From Methanocorpusculum sp. (GTDB lineage: Archaea; Halobacteriota; Methanomicrobia; Methanomicrobiales; Methanocorpusculaceae), in NCBI GenBank assembly GCA_017622255.1, contig JAGARL010000102.1, forward strand, positions 1 through 15,373: a stretch of 15,373 nt of DNA, written 5' to 3'. Below, in pieces: positions 1,512-10,046 of this stretch (positions within the stretch are counted from its first letter, which is position 1; each line of letters opens with the position of its first letter). Below the pieces are notes generated by a model that worked only from the letters and a program-made list of their open reading frames with translations, ran no database searches and was not told where the DNA came from. The position numbers were made by a program, and so were the translations under genes.

Positions 1512-3014
1512 ATGTACAAGTCCATCGACGAAATTAACGAACGGATTCGTGATGGAAGTGTTCGCGTAGCAACGGCTGAAGAAATGCCGGACATTGTCGA
1601 AGAACTCGGCACTGCTGGCGCTTTGAAGGAAGTGGACGTTGTTACGACGGGTACTTTCGGCGCTATGTGTTCTTCGGGAGCATTCTTCAACTTCGGACAT
1701 CCGGAACTTCCTATCCGCATGGAGAAGATGTACTTAAACGGAGTCGAAGCACATGCCGGTGTTGCCGCAGTAGACTGTTACCTGGGAGCCACCCAGGAAT
1801 CGGAAACGCTTCACTCGGATTACGGCGGAGCGCACGTTATTGAGGATTTCATCAGCGGAAAGTCCGTTGAGCTCGAAGCACGGGCAAAAGGAACGGACTG
1901 CTACCCAAGAAAAACAATTACCAATGAGTTCACCTTAGATGAGCTGAACCAGGCCATCATGGTGAACCCGAGAAATTCGTACCAGTGTTATTCCGCTGCA
2001 ACCAATATGGGCAGCCGCCCGATTAAGACCTACATGGGATATCTCCTCCCGGGACACCGGAACATCACCTACTCCGGTGCAGGATGTCTCTCTCCGCTTC
2101 CAAACGACCCGACCTACTCGGTTATCGGTTCCGGAACGCCGCTCTTTATCGGCGGAGCAAACGGTATCGTAATCGGCGAAGGAACCCAGCACTCCCCGGG
2201 CGCCGGATTCGGTACGCTGATGACCACCGGAAATATGAAGGAGATGTCAACCGACTTTGTCCGTGCCGCGACCATGACCGGATATGGGGTTACGATGTAT
2301 CTGGGAATCGGTATTCCAATCCCGCTCTTAAACGAGGACATTGTAAAGCAGACCGCAGTCCGCGACGAGGATCTGGTCACAGAAATCGTTGACTACGGCA
2401 CACCGTCCAGAGACCGCCCCGTCATCCGCAAGGTCACCTATGCAGAACTGAAGAGCGGTTCTGTTGAGATTGACGGCGAAGAGGTCAGAACGTCGCCGGT
2501 TTCCAGTTTCAAGAAGGCCCGCGAAGTAGCAGCAGAGCTTGGCAGAAGAATCGAGAACGGTACGTTCCTGATGGGCCTTGCAACGAGACCAATCAATGCG
2601 GTAAAGCGCAACCGCCCGATGGCTGAGAAAGGAAACACGGTCTATGTCTCCGAACTGATGGAGACCAAGTTTGTGACCATCACCGGACAGGAAAGCGTAA
2701 AAGAGGCGGCAAAGCGGCTGTTAGTCGGCGAGACGAACCATCTTCCGGTAATCGACTCCGAAAACCGGGTTATCGGAATTGTGACGACCTACGATGTCTC
2801 GAAGGCATTCGCAAACGACGAGCAGGACTTATCCGTTGCGGAGATTATGACCAGAAATGTCATCACCATCAGCCCGGACTCCCCGGTTGACTTCGCAGCC
2901 CGTGCTCTGCAGAAGCACAACATCGGCTCATTAGTTGTTGTGGACAAGAACCGCCGTGTGCTTGGTCTCTTAAACTCGTATGATTTAGGCGACCTTGTCG
3001 GCAGGAGGGGCTGA
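1512..3014 (+). CDS. L-aspartate semialdehyde sulfurtransferase (DUF39 + two CBS), homocysteine biosynthesis
   Basis: A 500-residue protein of the COG1900/DUF39 family with two C-terminal CBS domains. In methanogens this family works with a NIL-ferredoxin to place sulfide-derived sulfur on aspartate semialdehyde, giving homocysteine without O-acylhomoserine. The DUF39 core covers residues 1 to about 365. Cys53 (in FGAMCSSG) and Cys130 (in GTDCYPRK) sit where the persulfide-forming and disulfide-partner cysteines of the Methanosarcina homologue are known; Cys89 is an additional cysteine. CBS1 spans about 378-440 (VSELMETKFVTIT) and CBS2 about 443-498 (VAEIMTRNVITIS). CBS pairs commonly bind adenine nucleotides or SAM, which would suit feedback control (inference). 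The iron-sulfur partner starts 3 nt downstream and the UPF0280 gene follows, so the whole pathway unit is present. The start has a TATA box 30 nt upstream. Confidence 0.93.
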   Translation: MYKSIDEINERIRDGSVRVATAEEMPDIVEELGTAGALKEVDVVTTGTFGAMCSSGAFFNFGHPELPIRMEKMYLNGVEAHAGVAAVDCYLGATQESETLHSDYGGAHVIEDFISGKSVELEARAKGTDCYPRKTITNEFTLDELNQAIMVNPRNSYQCYSAATNMGSRPIKTYMGYLLPGHRNITYSGAGCLSPLPNDPTYSVIGSGTPLFIGGANGIVIGEGTQHSPGAGFGTLMTTGNMKEMSTDFVRAATMTGYGVTMYLGIGIPIPLLNEDIVKQTAVRDEDLVTEIVDYGTPSRDRPVIRKVTYAELKSGSVEIDGEEVRTSPVSSFKKAREVAAELGRRIENGTFLMGLATRPINAVKRNRPMAEKGNTVYVSELMETKFVTITGQESVKEAAKRLLVGETNHLPVIDSENRVIGIVTTYDVSKAFANDEQDLSVAEIMTRNVITISPDSPVDFAARALQKHNIGSLVVVDKNRRVLGLLNSYDLGDLVGRRG

Positions 3015-3017
3015 GTC

Positions 3018-3404
3018 ATGAAGCTGAAGGTTGAGTTTGACCGTGTCGGCATTCAGGAGCCGAGCATTGCCAAGGCGATTCTGGAGACCGGAATTGCCGC
3101 GAATATTGAGCGTGCAGTAATCGACGGTGATGAGGGCTGGACGCTTATCAGTGTCGCAGATGAGGAGACGGAGCGCTTTATCGCTGCGCTGAGCCGTCCC
3201 GGAGTTTCCATCCGGATTCAGAAGAATGCGGTCTCGCACAATGTCACCGAGTGCGTGGACTGCGGTCTGTGTATCAGCATCTGTCAGAAGAAGGTGTTCT
3301 CGTTTGACGAGGACTGGAAGCTTCGGGTAGAGCCGGAGCGCTGTGTGCTGTGCGGACGCTGTGCGGAGTTCTGTCCGCAGCGTGCGCTGAGTATTCTGAA
3401 GTGA
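3018..3404 (+). CDS. NIL-domain 2x[4Fe-4S] ferredoxin, homocysteine synthesis iron-sulfur subunit
   Basis: A 128-residue protein with an N-terminal NIL (ACT-like) domain at about 1-72 and a bacterial-type ferredoxin domain at 76-128. Two CxxCxxCxxxC motifs are intact (Cys79, 82, 85, 89 and Cys109, 112, 115, 119), enough for two [4Fe-4S] clusters. The second has the usual following Pro; the first has Gln instead. It is the partner of the upstream DUF39-CBS protein and probably supplies electrons to reduce the disulfide or persulfide intermediate during homocysteine formation. The start follows the previous stop by 3 nt, and the strong Shine-Dalgarno AGGAGGGG (3002-3009) lies inside the end of the upstream gene, so the two are translated together. 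Confidence 0.93.
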   Translation: MKLKVEFDRVGIQEPSIAKAILETGIAANIERAVIDGDEGWTLISVADEETERFIAALSRPGVSIRIQKNAVSHNVTECVDCGLCISICQKKVFSFDEDWKLRVEPERCVLCGRCAEFCPQRALSILK

Positions 3405-7175: not shown

Positions 7176-7222
7176 CCTCCTAGCTCTCTAAATGTGCTAA
7201 TTATGTTAGACGAGTATCATAT
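7176..7222 (-). promoter_or_regulatory. Promoter and Shine-Dalgarno of L10e
   Basis: TTTAATAT on the - strand (plus 7215-7222) is a TATA box about 50 nt before the ATG. It overlaps the stop codon of the ABC ATPase gene. AGGAGG (plus 7176-7181) is the ribosome binding site. This gives a predicted leader of roughly 25 nt. Confidence 0.55.
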
Positions 7223-8010
7223 TAAAGGTTCGCATTCTCCTGCTCAAGTTCCTCGATAACACCAAGGACAGTTTTGCGCAGGCTTGCAAACTCAACGCTC
7301 GTTCTGTCGCGCGGACGCGGCAGCGGATTTTCGTAAATCTCATGGATTCTGCCCGGTCTCGGCGTCAGAATCACAATCTTGTCAGCGAGGAAAACAGCCT
7401 CATCCACGCTGTGCGTGACAAAGAGAATCGTCTTCTTCGTCTTCTCCCAGATTTCGAGAAGTTCTCTCTGCATCTTGTTTCTGGTCTGGGCATCAAGCGC
7501 GCCGAACGGCTCATCCATCAGCATGACAGCAGGCTCGCTTGCAAGAGCACGGGCTACAGCCGCGCGCTGACGCATACCGCCGGAAAGCTCATACGGGTAA
7601 CTGTTTCCAAAGTCCTGGAGACCGACAAGCTCCAGATACTCAGCAACCTTTGCCTCGCGCATCTCCTTTGGGACCTTCATCATCTCAAGACCGAAGCCCA
7701 CATTCTCAGCGATAGTCCGCCACGGGTACAGCGAATACTCCTGGAACACCATGGTCATCATCGGAGACGGACCGTCGACGATTTTTCCGTCGATTTCAAC
7801 CGTTCCCGCTGTCGGCACATCCAGACCGCCGATCATGCGAAGGAGTGTCGTCTTACCGCATCCCGAAGGACCTAAGAGACAGACAAACTCGCCGTCATGC
7901 ACTTCCAGATTCACATCCTCAAGGGCAGTGACCGTGCCTTTCTTGGTGAAGAACTGCTTTGTTGCGTGCTCCACCTTCACCCAGACCTTATCCCAGTCGG
8001 TTTCCGTCAT
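7222..8010 (-). CDS. ABC importer ATPase, nitrate/sulfonate/taurine family
   Basis: A 262-residue ATP-binding subunit of the SsuB/TauB/NrtD type. It energises uptake together with the permease and lipoprotein encoded upstream. All motifs are intact: Walker A GPSGCGKT (47-54), Q-loop MVFQEYSLYPW (87-97, Q90), signature ELSGGMRQR (141-149), Walker B VMLMDEP (162-168, catalytic E167), D-loop GALD and H-loop FVTHS (197-201, H200). The ATG at 8010 overlaps the permease stop by four bases (ATGA), so permease and ATPase are translationally coupled. The substrate cannot be read from the ATPase; sulfonates, taurine, nitrate, bicarbonate and pyrimidine precursors are all carried by this family. Confidence 0.95.
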   Translation of the reverse strand: MTETDWDKVWVKVEHATKQFFTKKGTVTALEDVNLEVHDGEFVCLLGPSGCGKTTLLRMIGGLDVPTAGTVEIDGKIVDGPSPMMTMVFQEYSLYPWRTIAENVGFGLEMMKVPKEMREAKVAEYLELVGLQDFGNSYPYELSGGMRQRAAVARALASEPAVMLMDEPFGALDAQTRNKMQRELLEIWEKTKKTILFVTHSVDEAVFLADKIVILTPRPGRIHEIYENPLPRPRDRTSVEFASLRKTVLGVIEELEQENANL

Positions 8011-8768
8011 TTGTCAAGCACCTCCCATGCAAACTTCTTCTTCTGCACAATGCGGAACAGCTGGTCGGCGGCAATTCCGATGATTCCTATAGCGACCATT
8101 CCCGCGATAATTACCTGAATCTGACTGAAATTGTACGAGTACATAATCAGATAGCCAAGACCGGAAGATGCTCCCGGCATCATTTCTGCGGCAACCACAC
8201 TCATCCAGGCAATACCAAAACCAAGACGCAGACCGTTACAGATAGCAGGACCTGCGGCAGGCAGGAGAACCTTGGATAAGACCTGACGGTCGTTTGCCTG
8301 ATAGATTTTTGCTGTCTCAACCCAGCTCTTCTTGACACGGGAAACACCGTCAATCGTGTTTACCAGAATCGGGAAGAAACAACCGATAACGATAATAAAG
8401 ACAATCGAACTCATACCGATACCAAACCAGGCAAGGGAAAGCGGAACCCAGGCCATCGGCGGAATCGGGCGGAGAATCTGAATTAATCCGTCACAGAAGT
8501 TCTCAAGTCTCGGATAGCGGCCGAGAATAATTCCAAGCGGCACCGCAATTACACAGGCGATGACAAATCCGGTCACCACACGCGTAATACTGACAACCGC
8601 GTTGCTGACCAGGCTTCCGCTTCCGTAAATGTCAGCAAACGGCGTTAGGAATACCGCGAATACTTCCTCTACCCGCGGCAGAATATAGGGGTTATTTACC
8701 AGAACCGCTGCAATCTCCCAGATAACTACCGCAAGTATCGGGAGAATGAGCTTCGTATACCATTTCAT
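8007..8768 (-). CDS. ABC importer permease, nitrate/sulfonate/taurine family
   Basis: A 253-residue inner-membrane subunit of the SsuC/TauC type (binding-protein-dependent transport permease). Hydrophobic segments lie near 5-24, 58-82, 104-117, 119-138, 183-196 and 216-236, giving about six membrane spans. The cytoplasmic EAA loop that docks on the ATPase is at about 151-170 (ETAKIYQANDRQVLSKVLLP). The Gly of the consensus is replaced by Gln157, while the end LLP is kept. It overlaps the ATPase gene by four bases. The start ATG at 8768 lacks a Shine-Dalgarno, and a T7 tract separates it from the lipoprotein gene, so expression may be lower than that of the binding protein. Confidence 0.93.
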   Translation of the reverse strand: MKWYTKLILPILAVVIWEIAAVLVNNPYILPRVEEVFAVFLTPFADIYGSGSLVSNAVVSITRVVTGFVIACVIAVPLGIILGRYPRLENFCDGLIQILRPIPPMAWVPLSLAWFGIGMSSIVFIIVIGCFFPILVNTIDGVSRVKKSWVETAKIYQANDRQVLSKVLLPAAGPAICNGLRLGFGIAWMSVVAAEMMPGASSGLGYLIMYSYNFSQIQVIIAGMVAIGIIGIAADQLFRIVQKKKFAWEVLDK

Positions 8769-8828: not shown

Positions 8829-10046
8829 TTAGGCAGATTTGGTTGCATAACCAATGCCTGCGGAGTCAAGAGCCTCCTTTAACTGGACATCCTGAATAGA
8901 GCCAAGCTGCGGGTCAGCGATAACAACCGGTTTTCCTTCTGCACTGCGCTCTTTAATCCATGCAACAAAGCTGTCCCAGTCGTCAGCCGGAGCATCGTCT
9001 GCTACGAGGAGACCGGATCCGTTCATCATAATCGGTGCTAAGATCTTGATGTCAACAGCGCTGGATGCCTTGTCGATTGCAGAGACAAACGGCGGGGTTC
9101 CGGCGACTGCATACTGAATCTGATTCTGCTGGAGCAGAGTCATCAACTGCGGTCCTGCACTTCCCTCGATGAGTTTGACGTCACAGACCTTCTTGCCGTT
9201 GACATAGAGTTCTGCTTTGTCAATCTTTCCAACCTTCTCGGAGACCGGCTTTAAGTAGGTGTTGTAGTTGTCCTTGAAGAACTTCCAGTCCTTTAAGAGG
9301 ACGAAGAGCGGTCCGTCGTGGTCAGACGGAAGGTATCCAATAGAGATTTCCTGCACTGCGGTCTTCGGGTCTAAGAATTTGCCGGACGCTAAAATGTCCT
9401 GTGCTGCATCGTAGGCAGAGAAGTCAAAGAGCAGAGCTTCAGTTTCCTCACTGTTGGTGTTTGCAAGCTTTCCGGTAACTAATCCTAAGTCACGCTGGGA
9501 CTTGACGAAGTCCTCGTTGCTTGTAATCCATGCATCAGTAACCTCTCCGGAGAACAGGATGGTCGGAATGGATGCCTTCATGACATCAAGGGAATCAACC
9601 TTGACATCTCCGTAGGTTAACTCACCGTTTGCAAAGAGCCAGTCTGCGATGAGGGCTGCTGACTTGTCCGGGTTTTCGGTGATGTATTCATTGCCGAGAA
9701 TCATCAGGGCAGTTACATCAGCGGCAACCTCCGGGTTTGCAAGGGCATTCGAGTTTGCACCGAACACACAGCAGGTGTGTCCTTCCCATTTGCCTGCCGG
9801 CGGAAGGTCTTCGGAGTAGGAGACGACTTTTCCGACACCGCTTTCTTCGATACCGGCAACAAACGGCTGCCAGGTAATTACTGCGTCAACCGCTTCGGAA
9901 TCCAGGAGCTGTGCCATAGTTCCGGGAGCGGAATATAAGATTTCCACTCTGTCGCCGGAAGTTCCGTTGTCCACACAGCCGGCTGAGAAGACGACTGCGG
10001 CACAGAGAAGAACTGCTGCGGCAAGTACAAGATGCTTTTTCTGCAT
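8829..10046 (-). CDS. ABC importer substrate-binding lipoprotein with halves in swapped order (circularly permuted NMT1/SsuA type)
   Basis: A 405-residue exported lipoprotein: signal peptide 1-23 with lipobox SAGC (lipid-bearing Cys24). It belongs to the NMT1/SsuA-like binding proteins and delivers substrate to the permease and ATPase encoded next. The order of its halves is unusual. Residues 33-212 carry what is normally the C-terminal half: AQLLDSEAVDAVITWQPFVA (45-64), then LPPAGKWEGHTCCVF (81-95), YITENPDKSA, and the terminal LLFDFSAYDAA. Residues 232-405 then carry what is normally the N-terminal half: ISIGYLPSDHDGPLFVLLKD, ANVKL-like CDVKLIEG, LMTLLQQNQIQYAVAGTPP, LVADDAPADDWDSF and the closing GSIQDVQLKEALDSAGIGY. 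In ordinary relatives the text at 385-401 runs on into the text at 33-64. A linker (213-231) joins the old ends. The start at 10046 has a TATA box 27 nt upstream. Confidence 0.88.
   Translation of the reverse strand: MQKKHLVLAAAVLLCAAVVFSAGCVDNGTSGDRVEILYSAPGTMAQLLDSEAVDAVITWQPFVAGIEESGVGKVVSYSEDLPPAGKWEGHTCCVFGANSNALANPEVAADVTALMILGNEYITENPDKSAALIADWLFANGELTYGDVKVDSLDVMKASIPTILFSGEVTDAWITSNEDFVKSQRDLGLVTGKLANTNSEETEALLFDFSAYDAAQDILASGKFLDPKTAVQEISIGYLPSDHDGPLFVLLKDWKFFKDNYNTYLKPVSEKVGKIDKAELYVNGKKVCDVKLIEGSAGPQLMTLLQQNQIQYAVAGTPPFVSAIDKASSAVDIKILAPIMMNGSGLLVADDAPADDWDSFVAWIKERSAEGKPVVIADPQLGSIQDVQLKEALDSAGIGYATKSA

Follow-up and report, generated by a model that had tools for sequence, protein, structure and literature searches.

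Binding proteins of ATP-binding cassette (ABC) importers are already known in print to undergo natural circular permutation, so that the kind is not new. According to PMC4990184, Treponema pallidum Tp0684 (MglB-2), assigned to 'Type Ic / Cluster Bc', is a natural and working, lipid-tethered permuted binding protein of an ABC importer, and the authors of that paper also asked whether tethering favours permutation. Among glycine-betaine binders, Bacillus OpuAC (2B4L) is permuted relative to ProX (1R9L, 1SW1), as related in PMC2395249. Here, we analyze a gene carried by a 15,373-nucleotide stretch of Methanocorpusculum sp. DNA (contig JAGARL010000102.1, hereafter the window). It very probably encodes a true circular permutation of the solute-binding lipoprotein of a SsuA/NitT/TauT-type ABC importer. 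The swapped arrangement is conserved and apparently working, and relatives of this protein seem to have acquired it independently on several occasions. What deserves further attention is that two cut sites recur within one family and that one genus has a recent pair of canonical and permuted forms. No account of permuted SsuA/NMT1-type proteins was found in open-licence full text, which is not proof of absence in print.

The window protein, as judged from its sequence, and MglB-2 are alike in being naturally permuted, lipid-tethered binding proteins of ABC importers. Unlike the window protein, MglB-2 is a glucose binder of Type I/Cluster B, its N-lobe is cut with the last three strands moved, and it is reported from a single clade. 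OpuAC belongs to another sequence family, PF04069, which did not match the window protein at E up to 1. The canonical SsuA, TauA, NrtA and PF13379 (NMT1_2) binders are proteins of about 350 amino acids; the window protein differs from them by its swapped halves, by new termini in lobe 2 and by a greater length (405 amino acids) with extra hairpins.

Swapped halves in the Methanocorpusculum binding protein

The gene and its parts are the following.

8829-10046, minus strand: very probable circularly permuted SsuA/NMT1-type (PF13379) substrate-binding lipoprotein of 405 amino acids; intact open reading frame, PF13379 in two swapped pieces, rotation scan
9975-10046, minus strand: signal peptide and lipobox, residues 1-24 with Cys24; seen in the sequence itself, C24 constant throughout the alignments
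9411-9950, minus strand: residues 33-212, canonical second half; BLASTP to L118 190-345, PF13379 152-247
9354-9410, minus strand: linker, residues 213-231, running from the former C-terminus to the former N-terminus; in the AlphaFold model it lies between helix 210-221 and strand 233-238
8832-9353, minus strand: residues 232-405, canonical first half; BLASTP to L118 61-186, PF13379 5-148

The binding protein scores 67.3 bits with PF13379, above the curated cut-off of 24.7, and is matched in two pieces, the best of which aligns residues 231-398 with profile positions 5-148. A genome scan placed 9648-9953, upstream in the gene, on positions 152-247 of the 252-position profile, and 8850-9182, downstream in the gene, on positions 36-149. 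The linear order of the profile is thus not kept, its second half coming first. The same displacement is visible with TIGR01728 (SsuA_fam, aliphatic sulfonate binder), whose positions 125-234 of 290 are matched by residues 27-140 at 51.9 bits, below the cut-off of 163.5. When each half was compared by BLASTP with seven canonical-order proteins, residues 34-210 aligned with positions 190-345 of L118 and residues 234-400 with its positions 61-186. Read from these alignments, the two halves are complementary and adjoining in the canonical protein, and neither is a full domain.

A rotation scan was performed with a canonical-only profile built from 33 canonical proteins. The mature window protein rose from 66.1 bits unrotated to 117.4 bits with residue 217 as its first residue, starts at 220-226 gave 117.1-117.3 bits, and the best of 100 shuffles reached 1.9 bits. 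The gain was from 173 to 330 bits for the Archaeoglobus-type L110 and from 149 to 283 bits for Thermincola L148, and two canonical controls had their maximum at, or a few residues from, their own start. In a protein-database search with the rotated single sequence, all of the best 120 of 234 matches were permuted proteins; the canonical relatives used here were obtained from genome searches instead. The first-pass annotation had proposed, from the letters of the window, a circular permutation with a new linker at 213-231 and a fold broken within lobe 2. Profiles, BLAST, the rotation scan and the predicted secondary structure all support the permutation, and the linker fits the confidently predicted AlphaFold model, in which helix 210-221 is followed by a loop and by strand 233-238. 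The outcomes that the annotation had named as fatal to its claim did not occur: the order of the halves is not the normal one, each half is less than a whole domain, and many genomes share the swapped order. The cut site itself would lie within lobe 2, a placement based on strand and helix order and partly on background knowledge of the fold. The second-half segment (residues 33-212) starts at the strand following the first beta-alpha unit of that lobe, and the first-half segment ends just past the Q-D helix, where a canonical chain would continue.

A sequence search of the PDB gave nothing below E 0.03 for the window protein, with two PqqT matches in which the N-half aligned to chain residues 136-182. 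SsuA, NrtA and TauA were not among the 50 rows listed in either of two fold searches with the window model, a result that does not exclude them. NMDA-receptor matches in one of these had a TM-score of about 0.25 and a root-mean-square deviation near 30, and were not taken as meaningful.

Conservation, constraint and proposed function

The closest named proteins to the window protein come from Methanocorpusculum, order Methanomicrobiales. PF13379 matches occur in 32 of 33 genomes of the family, with both pieces in one gene in 23 and a single piece in nine, and the order is swapped in all 23 genomes that carry both. At the level of the order, a permuted profile matches 137 of 232 genomes, at least 102 of them with one match spanning at least 300 of the profile's 408 positions. 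Most of these sequences derive from metagenome-assembled genomes (MAGs), and the window's own genome is in 322 contigs, so that an assembly or gene-calling artefact must be considered. There is next to no chance of this, since the swapped order recurs in many independent assemblies, including the single-contig genomes G013 and G031, and in relatives with 53-100% identity to the window protein (best 120 of 142). Some observations nevertheless weigh against the permutation reading: about 95 of the 232 genomes lack any match to the permuted profile, and the rotation gain is smaller for L080 (59 to 86 bits) and for L162 (136 to 196 bits, at a single rotation at residue 139, flat elsewhere).

The gene is followed on the same strand by those of a permease and an ATPase.

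8007-8768, minus strand: cognate ABC permease (BPD_transp_1); PF00528 97.4 bits, gene order in 20/20 loci
7222-8010, minus strand: cognate ABC ATPase; PF00005 110.9 bits, gene order in 20/20 loci

This order of binding protein, permease and ATPase is kept in all 20 loci considered (L061-L080), and the lipobox cysteine C24 is unchanged across alignments of 23 and 64 rows, in agreement with the intact signal peptide, lipobox and operon described at first. One could imagine that the protein is a non-functional relic or has been repurposed and no longer serves the importer, as the shorter middle region of L066, L067, L077 and L080 might suggest. This is very unlikely in view of the presence of both transporter genes in all 20 loci, of the motifs W-Q/E-P, H-x-C, G-S and S-I-Q shared by permuted and canonical rows, and of the low ratio of nonsynonymous to synonymous substitution rates (dN/dS). 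Five distinct gene pairs (from eight loci, three of them repeated) gave dN/dS values of 0.09-0.145 for the whole gene, 0.11-0.17 for the N half and 0.03-0.125 for the C half.

Because of its family and its operon, the window protein is expected to serve an ABC importer as its capture subunit. The short linker would join the old N- and C-termini, and the chain would now begin and end in the loop between helix and strand that follows the first beta-alpha unit of lobe 2. The permuted chain may then fold into the same two-lobed clamp, whose N-terminal lipid would anchor it in the membrane, now through lobe 2 rather than lobe 1. Such a clamp would shut on a small solute and pass it on to the permease and ATPase of the same operon.

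The SsuA-like cut-offs were not reached, and neither RNA nor gene context provided any indication of the substrate; Rfam searched at gathering score gave no match in the window or in L118, L119, L110, L072 and L078. A sulfur link was considered on account of an 'HcyBio' label on genes near L117-L119 and L124, and was set aside. Because Pfam shows CBS and M50 peptidase domains on the L117 and L118 genes instead, we do not connect the importer with homocysteine synthesis. The window does carry an HcyBio-CBS gene for homocysteine biosynthesis, with a NIL/ferredoxin gene behind it (1512-3404); some 4 kb and several other genes separate the HcyBio-CBS gene from the ATPase gene.

Two cut sites and the number of origins

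When named genomes were scanned using the Archaeoglobus-type form as query, 406 relatives were obtained, and 80 of these were kept. They comprise 50 proteins with the window's cut (type A), two with another cut (type B, assigned by inspecting the pieces), 27 canonical proteins, one of them a 211-amino-acid fragment, and one single half; the proportions of type A and canonical forms among the loci reflect the query (A5) and are meaningless as frequencies. Type A was encountered in Archaeoglobi, Mnemosynella, Bacillota such as Thermincola, Thermoplasmata, Methanomassiliicoccales and ANME-2, the taxon labels being those of the records, mostly MAGs. Both type B members of this set belong to Theionarchaea. 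Three type B binding proteins are located as follows.

L161, 3941-4900: type B binding protein (Theionarchaea)
L170, 3935-4894: type B binding protein (Theionarchaea)
L117, 3871-4956: type B binding protein (Methanocella)

In type B, the pieces meet near position 120 of the canonical profile, at the crossover from lobe 1 to lobe 2 and about 40 residues earlier than in type A. These proteins carry a lipobox and occur in two unrelated lineages, and permease and ATPase genes follow in L117 and L161. Both known cut types shift the lipid tether, in every case from lobe 1 onto lobe 2, so that the recurrence may be selected. The canonical relatives L118 and L119 are also lipid-tethered according to their lipobox, which argues against a simple notion of tethering favouring permutation.

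The main tree of binding proteins contains 96 rows, 61 of type A, two of type B and 33 canonical; near-duplicates and fragments (L108, L109, L111, L114, L126-L132, L136-L138, L150, L151, L164, L170, L171, L178 and L179) were left out. The window's clade, which consists of L122 and 17 rows from Methanomicrobiales, is joined by canonical L118 and L119 and type B L117 (support 100/94, starred), and the other 43 type A rows group with canonical Thorarchaeota, Baldrarchaeota and Borrarchaeum rows (98/94, starred). The Methanomicrobiales members inherited the permutation from their common ancestor, and Archaeoglobi, Thermoplasmata and Bacillota probably acquired the same permutation independently of that ancestor. 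A single origin of type A, with its scatter explained by a return to canonical order, by gene transfer or by errors in the tree, would accommodate the nearly constant place of the cut, since in all 61 rows the C-terminal piece stops at position 154-165 of the canonical profile, and the clade of 43 rows is supported at 93/89, below the starred level. We regard it as improbable, given the different canonical partners of the two type A clades and the rejection of a single clade by the approximately unbiased test (p-AU 0.0003). A tree of permease and ATPase, covering the 84 of 93 loci that have both genes, similarly groups the window's transporters with those of the canonical L117-L125 types (100/95, starred) and rejects a single type A clade (p-AU 0.011, less strong and under a simpler model), with the reservation that these genes may have been exchanged. 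A single clade for both type B rows is also rejected (p-AU 3e-7). On balance, we favour the reading that the family was permuted at least four times at only two cut sites: the helix-to-strand loop of lobe 2, in the Methanomicrobiales line and in the Archaeoglobi/Thermoplasmata/Bacillota line, and the lobe 1-lobe 2 crossover, in Theionarchaea and, recently and by tandem duplication with in-frame fusion, in Methanocella.

Route of permutation and neighbouring observations

The Methanocella case is a recent one. Locus L117 comes from Methanocella sp. PtaU1.Bin125, and its 63 close relatives that were examined consist of 14 type B and 49 canonical proteins. The 14 form one clade (99/95, starred) nested among canonical Methanocella, including M. 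arvoryzae, and their nearest canonical protein shares 78% identity over the best segment. BLASTP aligned L117 to canonical L119 in three pieces: 1-37 on 1-38, 56-257 on 144-346 and 267-359 on 51-143. At the internal junction, [KR]VKD directly precedes the old first strand in 13 of 14 type B proteins, the fourteenth reading KTKS, and VKD stands at the equivalent place after the lipobox linker in all four nearest canonical proteins. Going by these motifs, such a junction is what would be left if the end of one copy were joined in frame to a second copy at the linker that follows its lipobox. Permutation by duplication is a route described in PMC3320104.

Fission and re-fusion, or the move of a segment, could have produced the permutations instead of tandem duplication and trimming. 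No fused double-domain intermediate was seen, though no thorough search was made for one, and the window's own linker contains no recognisable leader remnant. Tandem copies do exist in G010 (C65, L231) and G027 (C61, L232); they are two separate, already permuted lipoprotein genes on one strand, followed in G010 by a permease gene. The idea of a tandem-fused ancestor, put forward in the first-pass annotation, is not supported for the window's own lineage; a junction of the duplication/fusion type is seen in another lineage, Methanocella. The shared VKD argues against fission or a segment move, even if a segment moved together with its linker could leave the same trace, as does the lack of half-length open genes among the loci, except fragments at contig ends. 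We therefore consider this alternative possible but rather unlikely, and retain duplication as the preferred route.

Several minor observations concern the surroundings of these genes. The gene of ribosomal protein L10e comes next after the operon in 14 of the 20 Methanomicrobiales loci, and two of the other six reach a contig end nearby. Locus L125 (3248-6530, genome G110 of the same order) has a canonical-order binding protein, permease and ATPase adjoining L10e, which is the position of the permuted operon in those 14 loci. L066, L067, L077 and L080, which form a second, divergent permuted group in the order, have no L10e neighbour. In Mnemosynella, a 292-amino-acid PF13379 protein without evident signal peptide is encoded directly upstream of the permuted binding-protein gene (L115 3450-4328, L145 3079-3957). 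The type B row P0134 lacks a lipobox at its N-terminus, perhaps through an error of gene calling or of sequence. Finally, L122 (2528-3745, genome G368, outside the order) is a full-length member of the window's clade without lipobox cysteine, on a 6.5-kb contig beside three overlapping permease-like open reading frames; its presence there reflects either transfer or mis-binning.
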